Of a DNA stretch of 64,000 nucleotides, positions 9,444-61,169 are shown in pieces. The translations under genes were made by a program, and so were the position numbers. The notes under the pieces are model-generated. The model ran no database searches and was not told the origin of the DNA. It saw nothing but the letters and a program-made list of their open reading frames with translations. Source of the stretch: Mariprofundus sp. EBB-1. GTDB lineage: Bacteria; Pseudomonadota; Zetaproteobacteria; Mariprofundales; Mariprofundaceae. Position 1 is the first letter of the stretch; each line of letters starts with the position of its first letter. The stretch spans positions 1-64,000 of the forward strand of contig NZ_RCFQ01000009.1 in NCBI RefSeq assembly GCF_003665155.1, read 5' to 3'.

Positions 9444-11012
9444 TTGAACCTCACCAATATTCCACGCACGGAGCCGGCTTTTTTGAATACGTTAAAACGC
9501 TTCATTTATCTCATGCATAGCACCTGGTTGCTCCAAAAAATCCGTCGCAGTAAACACGCTGCAACGCGCCAGATCGCACAGCAGCGATTAACCCAACTCC
9601 TTGGCAGCAAACGTGGTATCGGCATGAAAATTGGTCAGGCGATGGCTGGCATGGATGACCAGAGCCATTTCACCGAACTCACACAGAGTGTTCAAGCATG
9701 GCCTCTCAAGGATATCCTCCCGGTGCTTGAGCATGCATGGCAGCAGCCTGTGAACAATATACTGGAATCAATTGAAGAGAGTGTGGCAGCCGCCTCGCTG
9801 GGGCAGGTGCATAAGGGCACACGCAACACAGATAGCGGCACGCCTGAGCATCTTGCGATCAAGGTACAATACCCTGATATTCGACAGGCTATTGAGAGTG
9901 AACTGAGTTTAGCTGCCCTTCTGCCCAAAGCAGGCCCGGTCAAACGCTGGGACTTTGACCTGAACAGCTACCAACAGACATTACAGAACACCTTGAATGA
10001 TGAACTGGATTACAGCCATGAAATGAAACAACAACAGCGCTTTCAGCAACATATCCATGTACCAGGACTTAAAGTCGCAGAGGTCTGTCCCGAACTATCC
10101 TCCGCACAAGTGCTTACCCAGCAATGGATGCATGGGCAACGCCTCTCTGAAGCCTGCAACTGGCCTGATCAAGCGCGCCTGAAAGCTGGTAAAACCTTAA
10201 TGCAAACCTTGTGGAAGAGCCTGTTTGAAATTGGCTTGGTACATGGCGACCCGCACCCGGGCAATCTGCTGTTTCAATATGATGAAGATCAACCGCAAGT
10301 ATGCCTGCTCGATTTCGGATGCATGTTAAATATCCCCTTCACACGCCGCATGTCGTTATTAAATCTCATTTTAGGCCTGCGCGGCAAAACCACCCTTAAT
10401 AGTTTCGATGCATTTGTTGGATTGGGTTTTGATGCTCAAAAACTGGAGCCTATCAAAGCCGAACTGGATGATCTGGCCAGGATTCTGTTTCGCCCCTTCT
10501 TACAGCCTGAACCTTTTGACACTGCCCAGTGGCAGCTATCAAAACAGGTTAATGATCTGCTCGGCGATCAACGCTGGCAATTTCGCTCGGCCAGTCCTGC
10601 TGATCTCTTTTTAGTACTGCGCACCTTTCAAGGCCTGGTACACCAACTGGAGAGCCTGAAGGTTCAACTCTCCTGGCCCGATATGCTCGATGCATCTGTA
10701 GGCGGGCAATATATTGAAACCGCCCTGCTCTGGAAATTCCCTAAAGCTGCGCACGAACCCGCCCCAACATACAAAGGCAGCGCCAAGAGCTTGCATGTTC
10801 ACATCACACGTGCTGGAAAATCACCCATGAAAATTGAACTGACTGCAGCCAGCGCACTGGATCTGCACAACCTGATTCCGGAACATCTGTTACCGCAAAT
10901 CATGGCCGCCAACATTGATATTTTTACCATAGAACAAGACCTGCACGAATCAGGTCTTGAGCCTCAAACACTTCTGGACATCACCCTTGAAGATAAACAT
11001 TACCACCTTTAG
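9444..11012 (+). CDS. AarF/UbiB (ABC1) family atypical kinase-like protein
   Basis: The protein carries the hallmarks of the ABC1/UbiB/ADCK family: KIGQ at 62-65, ASLGQVH at 117-123 replacing the glycine-rich loop, the lysine of AIKVQYPD at 140, the catalytic-loop equivalent HGDPHPGN at 267-274 and DFG at 290-292. Relatives support ubiquinone biosynthesis or lipid homeostasis through ATPase activity. At 522 residues it is near family length but lacks the C-terminal membrane helices of UbiB. The true start is uncertain: TTG 9444 has no ribosome site, while AGGAGGG at 9405 points to an ATT at 9420 in the same frame. No ubiquinone genes are adjacent. Confidence 0.8.
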   Translation: MNLTNIPRTEPAFLNTLKRFIYLMHSTWLLQKIRRSKHAATRQIAQQRLTQLLGSKRGIGMKIGQAMAGMDDQSHFTELTQSVQAWPLKDILPVLEHAWQQPVNNILESIEESVAAASLGQVHKGTRNTDSGTPEHLAIKVQYPDIRQAIESELSLAALLPKAGPVKRWDFDLNSYQQTLQNTLNDELDYSHEMKQQQRFQQHIHVPGLKVAEVCPELSSAQVLTQQWMHGQRLSEACNWPDQARLKAGKTLMQTLWKSLFEIGLVHGDPHPGNLLFQYDEDQPQVCLLDFGCMLNIPFTRRMSLLNLILGLRGKTTLNSFDAFVGLGFDAQKLEPIKAELDDLARILFRPFLQPEPFDTAQWQLSKQVNDLLGDQRWQFRSASPADLFLVLRTFQGLVHQLESLKVQLSWPDMLDASVGGQYIETALLWKFPKAAHEPAPTYKGSAKSLHVHITRAGKSPMKIELTAASALDLHNLIPEHLLPQIMAANIDIFTIEQDLHESGLEPQTLLDITLEDKHYHL

Positions 11013-46559: not shown

Positions 46560-48755
46560 CTATTCATCCAGTAATTGGCGTATCGTTTCACCAAGTTCAT
46601 CAATATTTACAGGCTTGGAAATCACAACATCTCCACTGAACGCCTGATCATGGCTCAGCACTTCACTCTTATCATAACCTGTTGAAAAAATAATTTTCAC
46701 ATCAGGCTGAATCTCTCTGATTCGCTTAACTGCATCAATACCACCAAGCTTTGGCATCACCACATCAACAATCGCAAGAGCGATATCATGCTTATTGTTC
46801 TTAAACACATCGATCGCTTCCAAACCGTCAGATGCCTCACAGATTTGATAATTCATGCTCTCAAGAATCTCTCTACTGCTTGCACGCACCATCTCATCAT
46901 CATCAACGATGAGGATTACCTCTCCATTTCCTGTCATGACTGGGCTGTCAGACGCATCGGCAACAATCTCTTTTAACTGCTGCATCGGCATATAAATATG
47001 AAAAGCTGTACCAATATCCAGGCTACTCTCTACTTCAATATAACCCTCATGCATTTTAATTGCCCCGAACACCATGGCCAAGCCAAGTCCTGTACCTCTA
47101 CCCTGTTCTTTAGTCGTAAAAAACGGATCGAAAATATGATCAAGCTGATCTTTGCCAATGCCACAACCATTATCTTCAACATTAAGCAGTGCATAATCTC
47201 CCACCTTAAAATACGGATTACTTTCTACAAAGCGATCGTCGGCATGAAAGACGTTCAATTTAATAGTAATCGACGGGTTCTCTGCACCCTCTACTGCATC
47301 ACGGGCATTATTGATCAAGTTCATCAACACCTGATGCAACTGGGTGACATCGCCAATCACCTGCATATCGTCAGAACAAAGCTCCTGATGCACCACAATA
47401 TTCTCAGGAATTGATGATCTCATAAATTTCACCATCTCTTTCACAAATGGTGTCAATGCTATTGGTTTCATCACCACCTCACCCTTGCGGGCAAACGTGA
47501 GTAGCTGCTGAATCATGTTGGCGGCTCTGAATGAGAGCGCTTCAACATCACTTAATTTTTGTGTTACATCGGGCATATCCTGAGTGCGCTTTTTCACCAG
47601 ATAGAGATTCCCGGTGATACCGGCCAGCATATTATTGAAATCATGCGCAATACCGCCCACCAGCGTGCCTACTGCTTCCATTTTTTGCGCCTGATAAAAC
47701 TGTTCCTGACTCTTTGCCAACGCCTCTTCCATCTTGTTGCGCTCTGTAAGGTCATGAAAAATAACAAGGCTGGAGTTATCATCTATCTTTGCCATGCTAA
47801 AAAGAATATCGCGTATGGTTCCATCTTTGCAGGTAACGTTGAATTCCAAGGGTCCAAATGCATCGGCACTATGCCGCGCCTTTTCAATAGCATCATCCCA
47901 CCCCTGCATAACTTGTTGCCGATACTCCGGGTCCGGATATGCACGTGGCCACCACGCTTCCAGGGTTGGAATATCAGCCAGTGTATAACCGAACATCTCT
48001 ACAAATTTCTCATTAAGCAGGGTGATGTTCTGGCCATTATCATTTACCGCCATGGGCAGTGGTGCAGAGTTGATCATTAAACGAAAACGTTCTTCTGTCT
48101 TTCTAAGCTCGGCAGTACGCTCAGCCACACGCAGTTCCAGATCATCATGCGCTTTCTGCAAGGCTTTCTCGTATCGTTTACGCTCTGCTTTCTCCTTCAT
48201 CAAATCCAGGGTGCGCGATGAGAGCGTATCGTACATATTCATTACGGTATCAATCAGCAGCTTCATAGAGCCGCTCATTTCGCGATCCGCCTGCTGCACT
48301 GCCTGCTCCAGTGTCAAACCGGAATCTACAGCCAGAATAGTCTTGGCCATGCGCTTATCGCTATCGAGAATATGATAGGCCAACCAGTGGGTCAGAAACT
48401 TCAGCACATCTTCAATCACCTCATCGAGTGATTTTGTACCCTCTTCTTCCTTTAATCTAAGTACCTGTGTGATAAAAGAGTCATGGGTATGCTGGTGACT
48501 GATAAATCTACTATCTGCTTTGAAATAGGGTTGCCAGATAGCCTCTTCTGCTTTGAAGTGATAGTCAGCGTATGCTGCCAGTTCATCAAAGACCTGATTT
48601 AATTTAACCGGCGCAGATTGATGCGCTAAATGTGCAGCGAGCAAATTTAACAGATGAACCAGCTGCTTATGCTGCTCATCAATGAGCGCAACACCGGTTT
48701 CAAAGTTCGCATTCCAGGGAAACACTTCGAAAAATTCAACTGCATCATTCTTCAT
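46560..48755 (-). CDS. Bacteriohemerythrin-PAS hybrid sensor histidine kinase
   Basis: The start is set at ATG 48755, preceded by GAGGGA at good spacing; the frame is open to 48884 but that extension is unlike the family. Residues 8-140 form a bacteriohemerythrin domain with all seven di-iron ligands: H29, H66, E70, H87, H91, H128 and D133. A coiled coil (about 195-245) leads to a PAS domain, HisKA with GGIAHDFNN, an ATPase domain with DNGCGIG and [10 protein letters not shown], and a receiver with the Asp in [12 protein letters not shown]. The 731-residue protein has no membrane segment. It should sense oxygen or a related diatomic ligand in the cytoplasm. No partner regulator is adjacent. 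Confidence 0.92.
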
Positions 48756-49003
48756 CAAGATTCCCTCACTTATTTGCATGGCATAGTTCTTCTTCAAGAC
48801 AACACATAAACATAAAAAAGTGTTTTGAAATATCCAGTTAAACAGATCTTGTGTCAATACGACGAGCACATATATGATGGACACAAATGAATAATATAAA
48901 TCACTTTTGCGTCTGGCACTTCAATAACCTGGTGTAATAACACACCATTACTGAATCCCATCTCCCACGCTATTGTTTTGAATGGCATCTCCCGACAGAA
49001 CAG

Positions 49004-53802: not shown

Positions 53803-54564
53803 TCAAGCGTCATGTTTTTCGACGCATCGTTCAGAGATATCCATTACTCTGAATTCAGTGACCCGGTAGAACGAACAAAAAATATTTTGATGGGACACGA
53901 CCTCTACCTGCTTCCCGAATATGCAAGCCGCACTATTCAATAAAGCTTCAATATCTTCATGCCAATAACTATTCAGAAAGGGCTCTAATCGCGTAATAAG
54001 CCAACGCGTCAATGGAAAACGATATAACAAATGTGTTTCAGGCAACACACCATATTCTGTTATGATTAATGAACCACCTGCGCGCAATGTACGCATAGTT
54101 TCAGATAATGTATGAGCACGCGCTTCATGCGGCATTTCGTGCAATAAAAAAAACAATACAATGGCAGAAAAACTGTCGGATTTATAAGCTAAAGACTCAG
54201 TATTCATGCGTGTAGCCAGCAAGTCATGTTGATCGGCAGCCTTACTTTTAGCTAACGCCAGCTGCACTGGTGCCACGTCTGTGATATGCAAGGATAAAGG
54301 TTTCATCCGCTGGATTAAGTTCGGAGTAAGAGAGCCGTAAACACAGGTAAGTTGCAAGACACTTTCCAGTGGAGCTTGCTCTAATCGCAGCAAGGTAGCA
54401 TCCATCAGCTTTTTATATTGCCCAAATAAAATAGCATTAATGATCATCTGATGATCAAAAAACCACACTGCTTTGGGCCAGAGATATGCCCACCAATAAT
54501 GACGTACCAGATAGCCCGGCATGCCACCTTTAACATCACGATATAATTTAAACATACGTTTCAC
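53803..54564 (-). CDS. rquA: Probable rhodoquinone biosynthesis protein RquA
   Basis: The 253-residue protein is methyltransferase-like but has the altered signature of RquA: YWWAYLWPKAVWFFDHQ at 23-39, a modified SAM loop VLQLTCVYGSLTP at 69-81 in place of a DxGxGxG motif, ITDVAPVQL at 94-102 and LFFLLHEMP at 137-145. RquA converts ubiquinone to rhodoquinone, using SAM as amino donor, and enables fumarate respiration at low oxygen. The assignment rests on remembered family motifs; a diverged class I methyltransferase is the alternative. It is a single gene between ald (convergent) and the lipoprotein hydrolase. Confidence 0.72.
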   Translation of the reverse strand: MKRMFKLYRDVKGGMPGYLVRHYWWAYLWPKAVWFFDHQMIINAILFGQYKKLMDATLLRLEQAPLESVLQLTCVYGSLTPNLIQRMKPLSLHITDVAPVQLALAKSKAADQHDLLATRMNTESLAYKSDSFSAIVLFFLLHEMPHEARAHTLSETMRTLRAGGSLIITEYGVLPETHLLYRFPLTRWLITRLEPFLNSYWHEDIEALLNSAACIFGKQVEVVSHQNIFCSFYRVTEFRVMDISERCVEKHDA

Positions 54565-54763
54565 CTCTCAATCAGGCGCATTATATCTTCAACCTCAATA
54601 TCACTTGTATGCATTTCTAAAGACTTTTTCACTAAACCAGATCATGTATCAAAAGCGCTTTCCCAGACAATATTGACCTGATTAGCATCACCCCTATTTA
54701 AAGCTGCGTGATCATTATTCGCTCATTTCGCGAGCCTTTCTCCAGTATTCATCATCTAAAGTA

Positions 54764-57642: not shown

Positions 57643-59700
57643 TTGAATCCAATCACGTCTTCCATACCTACCCAACCGGTCACCCTGCACGGCCATGTTT
57701 ATCGCGGTGAAAATCGCCTGCGCGTGGCTTTGACTGGCCAACCAAATAGTGGAAAAAGTACCATTTTCCACGCTGTTGCCAGCACCCGTTACCGCACAGG
57801 AAAGCTTACCGGCACACATAAACCCTATGCCGAATGTCCGGTACAAATTGGCGTAGATGAAGTGCATCTGGTTGATCTGCCTGACCTGAACTCCTTGCGT
57901 GGTTTACAGGGTGATGACCTTGAAGCACTAAAATATCTACTCTGGGGCGATGCACGCCCTTTGATTTCCCTTCACGAACAGCAAGCTCCTCCGGCTCCTT
58001 TTTCCCGGCCGGATGTGCTTGTTTATGTGATTGATGCCAGTGCACTGCAGCAAAGTCTGGAACTTGGCCTTGAACTATCAGAGCTGGGGTTACCCGTAGT
58101 TGTCGCGCTAAACATGATGGATGAAGCACACCGCAAAGGTGTTGAAATCGATGTCGAACTACTGTCAAACAGACTCGGTGTTCCTGTTATTCCAACCACC
58201 GCCTTAAAAGGACATGGTCTATCTGAACTGTTTGAACAAGTATTAAAAACTGGCAGGAAACCAGTTTGTCCCCTAACGCAACCAGCCAGCCAGCATATTC
58301 AACATTGGGCCGCAAAGATGCACAAACTGATTGATCAGCCGGACATCAAGGCTGCTTTTGCCATGCCCAAATATATGCTGACCATGAATTTACTGGAAGC
58401 AGATCCATATATACTTTCGGAAATGCAGAGTCATTTCCCTGAAACTGTGCCAGCTATTCTTGCTCTGCATGCGTCTGCCAATCAGGAATTACCAAGACCT
58501 TTAACCGAAGAGGTCAAAGCAGATCGCCATCATCGTGCCATCAGTATGTTTGATGACGTCGCCAAACTGATCCATAAACCGAAACTGAGTTGGGAAGACC
58601 GACTAGACATGCTATTTTTGCACCCCCGCTGGGGTCTGGTCGGTTCACTGGCTGTATTTGCCGCCGTTCTATTCATGGTCTTTGAAGTGAGCACTGCACT
58701 CGATGCCATGTCTGCAGCCAGACTGGCTGAGATGATTTCCGGCTGGCAACCGGAAACTGCTACAGCTGTTGTCGGGCGTGCGGTAGTCGATGGCTTAATC
58801 GGACTGATTGGTATTGTTGTGCCCTATATGTTGCCTTTGGTATTGATGCTCGTTGCACTCGAAGAGAGCGGTATCATGCATCGCATTGCTTTTGTCGTGG
58901 ACCGTTTTTTTCATACCATCGGCCTGCATGGCAAAGTCGCTGTGCCATTTTTGTTAGGGCTCGGCTGCAACGTGCCCGCCATTGCCGCCACCCAGGGGCT
59001 AACAAGTGGCCGTGACCGGGTAGTCTCTTCCTTGTTGATCACCTTTGTGCCCTGCTCTGCCCGCTCTGCTATTGTATTAGCGCTCGGAGCAAAATATCTC
59101 GGTGCTATCGGTGTGTTGTTACTATTTATGTTGAGCTTACTGGTGATCGCAACACTCGGGCGATTACTATCACGCCGCTATCCAGAGATAAGCCCCGGTC
59201 TGATTCAGGAAATTCCGCCCTATGGCTGGCCCAAACTATCACCGCTACTGCACTCTACCTGGAACCGCACCAGTGATATCCTCACCATTGTTGCACCGCT
59301 TTTGGTGGCAGGCAGCGTAATCCTTGCCCTATTGCAATTTGCTGGTCTCGATCAAGCCATCAACACGGCGCTTGCCCCGATAACCGTCTGGGCTCTGGGA
59401 TTACCTGCTGTATTGGGAGTACCCATTCTTTTTGGTGTACTTAGGAAAGAGCTATCACTGGTAATGATTTATCAAGCCCTTGGCACCTTCGAAGTCGGCA
59501 TGATGCTGGATACCATTCAAATCAGCACTTTCCTCGTATTCCTGTTGTTTTACATCCCGTGTGTATCCACTTTCGCAGTCATGTTGCGGGTCATCGGGCG
59601 CAAGGAAGCACTCTTCTCGATTGCACTCTCCATCGGTGTTGCGCTCATCGTTGCGCTTGCCGTACGCTTCTCACTCACCGGTATTCAGAGCATCTTTTAG
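57643..59700 (+). CDS. feoB: FeoB-type ferrous iron transporter with altered G3 motif
   Basis: The N-terminal G domain has G1 GQPNSGKST at 32-40, G4 NMMD and TTALKGHG (G5). G3 reads DLPD at 78-81 instead of the usual DLPG. The membrane half (about 345-685) carries the Gate motifs GLGCNVPAI and FVPCSARSAIV plus LRKELSL, which define FeoB. It would import Fe(II) driven by nucleotide hydrolysis. At 685 residues it is shorter than E. coli FeoB (773). The start is a TTG without a good ribosome site. FeoA and FeoC genes are absent nearby. The altered G3 may affect GTP hydrolysis. Confidence 0.85.
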   Translation: MNPITSSIPTQPVTLHGHVYRGENRLRVALTGQPNSGKSTIFHAVASTRYRTGKLTGTHKPYAECPVQIGVDEVHLVDLPDLNSLRGLQGDDLEALKYLLWGDARPLISLHEQQAPPAPFSRPDVLVYVIDASALQQSLELGLELSELGLPVVVALNMMDEAHRKGVEIDVELLSNRLGVPVIPTTALKGHGLSELFEQVLKTGRKPVCPLTQPASQHIQHWAAKMHKLIDQPDIKAAFAMPKYMLTMNLLEADPYILSEMQSHFPETVPAILALHASANQELPRPLTEEVKADRHHRAISMFDDVAKLIHKPKLSWEDRLDMLFLHPRWGLVGSLAVFAAVLFMVFEVSTALDAMSAARLAEMISGWQPETATAVVGRAVVDGLIGLIGIVVPYMLPLVLMLVALEESGIMHRIAFVVDRFFHTIGLHGKVAVPFLLGLGCNVPAIAATQGLTSGRDRVVSSLLITFVPCSARSAIVLALGAKYLGAIGVLLLFMLSLLVIATLGRLLSRRYPEISPGLIQEIPPYGWPKLSPLLHSTWNRTSDILTIVAPLLVAGSVILALLQFAGLDQAINTALAPITVWALGLPAVLGVPILFGVLRKELSLVMIYQALGTFEVGMMLDTIQISTFLVFLLFYIPCVSTFAVMLRVIGRKEALFSIALSIGVALIVALAVRFSLTGIQSIF

Positions 59701-59849: not shown

Positions 59850-61169
59850 TTAACGATCCAGGATCTCTCGCACAACCTGGCTTAGTTCACTGACAGCAAA
59901 CGGTTTACTAATGACTTTTTCTTTAGAGTTTTCTCCTCTGACACCAAGCGCACTGAGTTTATCATAACCGGTTGCAAACATGGCCTTCACATCCGGATTT
60001 ATCTCTCGGATACTTTGCAGTGCTTCCACGCCACCCAATCTCGGCATAACAACATCAAGGATAAGCAGGTCGATATCGAATTGTTGTTCACTGTAAACCT
60101 CAATGGCTGCAAGGCCATCTTCCGCGACAAGCACACGATAACCCAAGCCCTCCAGTACATCGCGACCTGTTTCCAGCACAGTCTTGTTATCATCTACAAG
60201 CAGAATCGTTTCGCCCTTTCCATTCACAACGGCATCTTCATTCATCGCTATGTTCATTTCTCCATCAGACTCAATCAATGGCAGATAGACTTTCATTGTA
60301 GTGCCCTTACCCGAAGATTTTGCTTCAATCACACCGTTGTGTGTTCTCAATGCACCATAGCCCATTGCCAGCCCCAGGCCCGTCCCTTTGCCCGGCTCTT
60401 TGGTCGTGAAAAACGGTTCAAAGATATGATCCATATACTTATCTTTAATCCCGCAACCATTATCAACCACTGAAATCACGGCATACTCAACGGCATCCAC
60501 ATCTTCATGCTTGGCTAAAAACTCAGCTGTCGCAAGATAGCGATTTAAATGAATCGTAATGGAAGGGTTTTTCACCCCCTGCACAGCATCAAAGGCATTA
60601 TTAATCAGATTCATCAACACCTGTTGCAACTGATTGAGATCACCGTTCACCTGCATATCCGACCCAGTAATATTCAGTTCCAGATGAATATTTTCAGGCA
60701 CTGAAACCTGCTGCATTTTGATGGTTTCTTTTAAAAAGGATCCAATCGAAAGCGGATGCATTTCAACAATGCCTTTACGAGAAAATGCTAACAACTGCTG
60801 AATCGTTGCGGCAGCACTGAATGACAGCTTCTCTACCACACCCAGACGTTTCACCACGTCGGGCAACCCATATGCCGCTTTTTTTGCCAGATACAGGTTA
60901 CCTGTAATACCCGCCAGCGTATTATTAAAATCATGTGCAATACCGCCAACCAGCGTACCTACCGCTTCCATTTTCTGCGATTGATGAAACTGTGCTTCAA
61001 GTTCTTCAAATTTCTCAAGGTTCTGCTGGATTCCAATATAATGAGTGGTTTTTCCTGCTTTATTTTTGATCGGTGAAACCGTCAGAATAGCGGGATAAAA
61101 TTCACCGTTCTTTTTCCTATTGATCACTTTCCCCTGCCATGTCTGCCCGTAAGTAATACTTTCCCACAA
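59850..61169 (-). pseudogene. Hybrid kinase fragment 3: PAS end, HisKA, ATPase, receiver
   Basis: This 439-residue frame begins in the middle of a PAS domain (LWESITYGQTWQGKVINRKKNGEFYPAIL), so it cannot be a natural protein start. HisKA has [19 protein letters not shown], the ATPase domain has DNGCGIKDKYMDHIFEPFFTTKEPGKG, and the receiver holds the Asp in LILDVVMPRLGG. The kinase core is clearly paralogous to the hemerythrin kinase at 46560. Its frame overlaps fragment 2 by about 45 bp. All functional kinase motifs are intact; only the connection to the sensor part is lost. Confidence 0.82.

Follow-up and report, generated by a model that had tools for sequence, protein, structure and literature searches.

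The rquA-like gene of Mariprofundus sp. EBB-1 probably encodes a divergent RquA, here called Zeta-type, which would make rhodoquinone from ubiquinone for a low-potential quinone pool at the oxic-anoxic interface; we put the probability of this reading at roughly 0.74. EBB-1, a member of the Zetaproteobacteria, is a microaerophile that oxidizes iron and has been brought into culture (PMC6763651). The reading draws on the family cut-off, the predicted fold, the retention of diagnostic residues, purifying selection and the presence of ubiquinone genes, from which we infer the reaction and its use.

The initial annotation described an open reading frame at positions 53,803-54,564 of the window (i.e., the whole stretch of 64,000 nucleotides that was analysed), on the reverse strand, with the blocks CVYGSLTP, YWWAYLWP and LFFLLHEMP; the frame, its coordinates and the blocks are as described, and the frame is intact. 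The listed GTG start at 54,564 falls within the ribosome-binding sequence GAGAGGTGAAACGTATG, and several relatives begin at a codon aligned with the fourth codon of the GTG frame; therefore, the ATG at 54,555 is the better start. The coding sequence most likely spans 53,803-54,555 (reverse strand), with this probable ATG start and a predicted product of 250 amino acids followed by a stop codon. A probable ribosome-binding site, GAGAGGTG, lies 6 nt 5' of the ATG (54,562-54,569, reverse strand) and includes the listed GTG.

Compared with the NCBIfam RquA equivalog model (NF038261), the EBB-1 protein scored 180.2 bits (E = 4.5e-53), far more than chance would give and a small margin over the curated cut-off of 175 bits. 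The next-best family, the corrinoid-associated CpaM (NF043040, cut-off 180 bits), gave 42.5 bits (E = 4.9e-11), the UbiE model (TIGR01934, cut-off 158) gave 29.5 bits (E = 4.3e-07), and Pfam recognizes just a generic methyltransferase domain. With NF038261, canonical RquA sequences from other parts of the phylum reach about 225-317 bits; full-length sequences of the Zeta-type clade score 155-186 bits and straddle the cut-off, with about half of them below 175. At E <= 1e-20, this model had no match in 14 control genomes, nor in 321 of the 398 sampled genomes of the phylum. Judged by its sequence, the EBB-1 protein is probably a divergent rather than a textbook RquA, and is predicted to convert the respiratory quinone to rhodoquinone.

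All of the following motifs lie on the reverse strand. In the N-terminal RquA region, the YWWAYLWP block (54,475-54,498) carries YWWAY, which hardly varies among the 35 canonical and 33 Zeta-type sequences and which UbiE lacks. The non-canonical SAM motif I loop, CVYGSLTP (54,322-54,345), begins with the CVYG found in 35/35 canonical RquA sequences, where UbiE has AAGSG; over the longer motif, EBB-1 reads LQLTCVYG, compared to LQVACVYG in canonical RquA and LDVAAGSG in UbiE. The FFLLHEMP block after strand 4 (54,130-54,153) conforms to the FFLLHExP common to both clades, its M being Q in 32 of the 35 canonical sequences, and the LEPF motif of the C-terminal helix (53,977-53,988) is likewise common to both. 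The three blocks named initially do set RquA apart from ordinary methyltransferases: canonical RquA keeps them almost unchanged, and UbiE has none of them. An altered SAM motif I, with the remaining class I motifs kept, has been used to recognize RquA (PMC5953543), and the EBB-1 protein has this combination.

Among the 64 near-invariant columns of canonical RquA, the EBB-1 protein retains 45, compared to 14-21 in UbiE and other methyltransferases. Those retained include P16, Y18-L19, YWWAY, Q71-x-x-CVYG, D96, Q101, K108, FFLLHExP, LEPF, W201 and Y233; the changes include, among others, W47F, R54M, A73T, N104L, D121N, D170E, H172G, P174L, R181Y, A197L and Q234R. The Zeta-type clade as a whole departs from canonical RquA at about 19 near-invariant columns. 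It should be noted that the clade states D37, H38, Q49 and Y50 are also present in canonical members scoring well above the cut-off.

In Rhodospirillum rubrum RquA, D118A and D143A together abolish activity, the text describing the double mutant only (PMC9814641). By position, in an alignment that lacked the R. rubrum sequence, and by the 25-residue spacing of D118 and D143, Asp96 (GTG numbering; 54,277-54,279, reverse strand), invariant in both clades, is the putative equivalent of D118, which is associated with the SAM ribose, and Asn121 (54,202-54,204, reverse strand) that of D143. Position 121 is Asn in 30/33 Zeta-type and Asp in 34/35 canonical sequences; because exceptions occur in both clades (one canonical sequence with a high score has Asn, and three Zeta-type sequences have Asp), Asn121 alone is not disqualifying.

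The AlphaFold2 model, built with 15 related sequences (pLDDT 77.5, pTM 0.80), has a class I SAM fold, and its top PDB match is SAM-bound yeast Coq5 (4obw, E = 2e-09, TM 0.61), which also served as the comparison enzyme for RquA in PMC9814641. Going by the usual topology of this fold, coordinates aside, the changed residues of the first helices and of the region after strand 5 would face the substrate.

We constructed a maximum likelihood tree of the 33 Zeta-type and 35 canonical RquA sequences together with UbiE and other methyltransferases. The RquA-type sequences of both kinds split from UbiE and the others at 98/96. The Zeta-type clade (support 97/90) consists nearly entirely of Zetaproteobacteria, with a few alpha- and gammaproteobacterial MAGs, and the canonical group has weak support (88/18). 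Joining the Zeta-type clade with one canonical sequence (G080) was not rejected by the AU test (p = 0.48); given this result and the weak canonical support, the clade may be either sister to canonical RquA or nested within it. The phylogenetic check proposed at the outset, RquA against UbiE outgroups, thus separates the protein from UbiE, and places it in a clade of its own beside the canonical set. The same qualification applies to the proposed identity as rquA: the score above the equivalog cut-off and the grouping with RquA, away from UbiE and the remaining methyltransferases, uphold it, while the position in a divergent clade narrows it. The canonical group includes a sequence that we take to be the RquA of Magnetococcus marinus MC-1 (G082). 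The M. marinus enzyme is functional in E. coli, with RQ8 present in the cells (PMC11707229).

Three sequences from alphaproteobacterial MAGs (L008, L009 and L014) nest inside the Zeta-type clade, and these bins may contain errors. The Rhodospirillales MAG SI075_bin47 (G400, locus L009) encodes two RquA proteins, one canonical (290.5 bits) and one Zeta-type (170.7 bits), at C355:201-845 and C245:1497-2153; either transfer, distinct functions or a mixed bin could account for this pair. Two Zeta-type copies from different subclades are present in the Mariprofundus MAG G055 (L020, L102).

The gene was detected in 31/78 zetaproteobacterial genomes (two of these are low-score fragments and one has an internal stop), and in 19 of the 39 genomes that are at least 90% complete. 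On an SdhA tree of 41 of these genomes, its presence and absence require at least 10 changes. The sibling MAG G064, with an SdhA 99% identical to that of EBB-1, has the orthologous locus (G064:C97), in which the two flanks (93% and 95% identical) abut one another; the 791 bp corresponding to window positions 53,957-54,747 are missing, the last ~50 rquA codons remain, and an imperfect repeat, TTCAATATCT / TTCATCATCT, marks the deletion ends. A second rquA in G064 is 61% identical to the EBB-1 copy and groups with one from another genus; its contig belongs to the G064 lineage, because the other part matches EBB-1 contig C12 at 93%. The copy of the common ancestor was deleted in G064 and a different copy resides elsewhere, a pattern that fits one retained function. 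The patchy horizontal spread anticipated by the initial annotation is supported by the changes on the SdhA tree and by the deletion and second copy in G064. A search for plasmid relatives gave no match at 1e-5. Values of dN/dS were 0.06-0.23 between pairs of the Zeta-type clade, several other pairs being saturated; Zeta-type rquA is under purifying selection. Decay is seen as well, in the 3' stub left in G064 at the EBB-1 locus and in the internal stop in G041.

In the window, rquA is surrounded by genes for alanine dehydrogenase, hydrolases and a phospholipase-like protein; no quinone gene adjoins it, and no recurring neighbour was found across 30 loci of the clade, in agreement with the initial description of a single gene without quinone neighbours. 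The sole remote quinone candidate in the window is an ABC1 atypical kinase of the UbiB superfamily (9,444-11,012), 43 kb from rquA and possibly quinone-related. Related sensor kinase-receiver proteins (46,560-48,884 and 59,850-61,169) flank the region, the first seeming haemerythrin-like at its start by eye, and a FeoB-like protein (FeoB_N, Gate, FeoB_C) is encoded at 57,643-59,700 in this iron oxidizer. At other loci, a small cytochrome c gene (CKMCH; Pfam Cytochrome_CBB3) directly precedes rquA in G064 (L012:1-318), cytochrome c-related sequence precedes it in L010, with fragments in L003 and L005, and ORFs with haem motifs lie nearby in L009, L014, L102 and L042. A consistent cytochrome c or haem link was rejected as inconsistent across loci, the control of 14 tiles (one with such an ORF) being too small to judge by. 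A dispersed-repeat or integron-like setting, considered on account of short repeats near L012 and L010, was dropped since no consistent pattern emerged.

The search for ubiquinone genes in EBB-1 covered UbiA, UbiE, the SCP2 protein, UbiH-type hydroxylases and U32 proteins (UbiU). UbiA scored 272 bits, just under the cut-off of 275; UbiE is followed by an SCP2 protein, and there are two UbiH-family hydroxylases. These genes predict an O2-dependent ubiquinone route, with substrate for RquA available. UbiU was not found in EBB-1, which has two members of the U32 family, TrhP and a protein of 754 amino acids. Across the class, UbiU-sized U32 proteins occur in four genomes only, three of these with rquA, and in 0/19 near-complete rquA carriers. 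Elsewhere, 73/84 rquA carriers have the O2-independent ubiquinone route (PMC11707229).

Complex II of EBB-1 is encoded by a single ordinary sdhCDAB operon, close to the bc1 complex; its sequence does not reveal in which direction the enzyme runs. Zetaproteobacterial genomes, with or without rquA, have at most one SdhA each plus a second, weaker homolog, which is taken to be NadB (in G055, SdhA is split over two contigs). No second fumarate reductase tied to rquA was found in carriers or non-carriers. The anaerobic fumarate-reducing quinone chain suggested by the initial annotation is not evident from the genome, which has the O2-dependent ubiquinone route and one ordinary SdhCDAB and lacks UbiUV and a second fumarate reductase. 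Our literature search found no measured quinones for any zetaproteobacterium.

In the mechanism we propose, the class I SAM fold with its rewritten motif I loop would bind SAM and ubiquinone at the membrane, and one ubiquinone methoxy group would be swapped for the SAM amino group to yield rhodoquinone. The potential of rhodoquinone is -63 mV, versus about +110 mV for ubiquinone. As the likeliest use, a minority low-potential pool would let the single SdhCDAB run towards fumarate reduction, and NADH would be re-oxidized once O2 is exhausted at the oxic-anoxic interface, the habitat of these microaerophiles. Lacking the O2-independent route, the cells would synthesize their ubiquinone during periods with some O2. 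Between zetaproteobacteria, rquA moves as a single unit, with losses and re-gains. We regard rhodoquinone production by the EBB-1 protein as likely, and consider it plausible that the single complex II uses this quinone to reduce fumarate.

To our knowledge, no member of the Zeta-type clade has been tested. RquA alone suffices to form rhodoquinone from ubiquinone with SAM and Mn2+ (PMC9814641); another outlying rquA gave no rhodoquinone in E. coli (PMC13386864). The latter result, together with the MAG that has both types, calls for caution. Counted against the preferred reading are the straddled cut-off, the roughly 19 changed columns, Asn at the D143 position and the presence of both types in one alphaproteobacterial MAG.

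Some of these observations would be expected if the clade were a neofunctionalized sister of RquA, with the same fold and SAM handling and another quinone or intermediate, ring position or SAM-derived group. The clade-wide changes at canonical-invariant columns cluster in the first helices and in the region that follows strand 5, the separation in the tree is deep, G400 has this type together with canonical RquA, and the usual partner UbiUV is missing. However, every RquA-specific motif is kept, D37, H38, Q49 and Y50 recur in well-scoring canonical members, D and N at position 121 are found in both clades, and the EBB-1 protein is still within the equivalog cut-off; we consider such a sister improbable. 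We are slightly more doubtful about the related proposal of a second, functionally distinct RquA-like branch, which would form another modified quinone, or start from another substrate, to suit the needs of microaerophilic iron oxidizers, and would coexist with true RquA in some bacteria. Somewhat unlikely is a third possibility, that rhodoquinone is made and its main role is another, e.g., as a low-potential pool feeding reverse electron flow through complex I to NAD+ or as an acceptor of electrons from other donors; this possibility deals with what rhodoquinone does rather than with whether it is formed, so its probability overlaps with that of the preferred reading. The carriers are microaerophilic Fe(II) oxidizers dependent on reverse electron flow (PMC6443915), and the single SdhCDAB beside the bc1 complex, together with the lack of another fumarate reductase whether or not a genome has rquA, agrees with such a role. 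Conversely, the 30 loci show no genetic link between rquA and either complex I or donors, and one succinate dehydrogenase is no argument against fumarate reduction, because a second sdh/frd operon is reported for only 12 of the rquA genomes of PMC5953543.

An ordinary SAM methyltransferase of the UbiE/Methyltransf_25 type, resembling RquA by chance, would match general Pfam methyltransferase models and Coq5 by fold, as the EBB-1 protein does. This identity was rejected on profile scores and motifs, and we consider it very improbable: the E-value is 4.5e-53 for RquA versus 4.3e-07 for UbiE, motif I is rewritten, and the genome has a separate UbiE with its SCP2 partner. A decaying, functionless remnant is hardly to be expected either; decay is known in the clade, including the stub at the same locus in G064, whereas the EBB-1 frame is intact with a ribosome-binding site, dN/dS in the clade is low (0.06-0.23) and the invariant motifs are kept.

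Rhodoquinone potential has been reported in 24 orders that the main text of PMC13386864 leaves unnamed, and zetaproteobacterial rquA may already be included there. For Mariprofundus, our literature search found no mention of either rquA or rhodoquinone. Three points seem to be novel: the divergent clade, its occurrence apart from UbiUV, and the replacement of one copy by another. If rhodoquinone is made, a low-potential quinone is available to many marine iron oxidizers that are considered strict microaerophiles, with consequences for how they outlast the loss of O2 and how they move electrons; rquA would also occur here without the O2-independent ubiquinone synthesis that normally accompanies it. 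If it is not made, the clade marks the border between RquA and a sister enzyme, and the present cut-off is not a safe basis for annotating such sequences.

Compared to canonical RquA (NF038261; R. rubrum Rru_A3227, M. marinus), the Zeta-type protein shares the class I fold, the CVYG motif I, YWWAY, FFLLHExP, LEPF, W201 and the Asp at the D118 position, as well as the solitary gene and its patchy spread. It differs in a mean identity of about 31%, in Asn at the D143 position, and in consistent changes, e.g., R34W, W47F, R54M, A73T, N104L, D170E, P174L, R181Y, A197L and Q234R. Nearly all Zeta-type carriers lack UbiUV, whereas the rquA carriers of PMC11707229 mostly have the O2-independent ubiquinone route. 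CpaM (NF043040) is the second sequence family for the EBB-1 protein, yet the score is far under the CpaM cut-off. With UbiE/Coq5 (TIGR01934; PDB 4obw), the protein shares the fold and the general SAM pocket; however, UbiE has the canonical motif I and none of the RquA blocks, and the EBB-1 protein is ~15% identical to the host's own UbiE.
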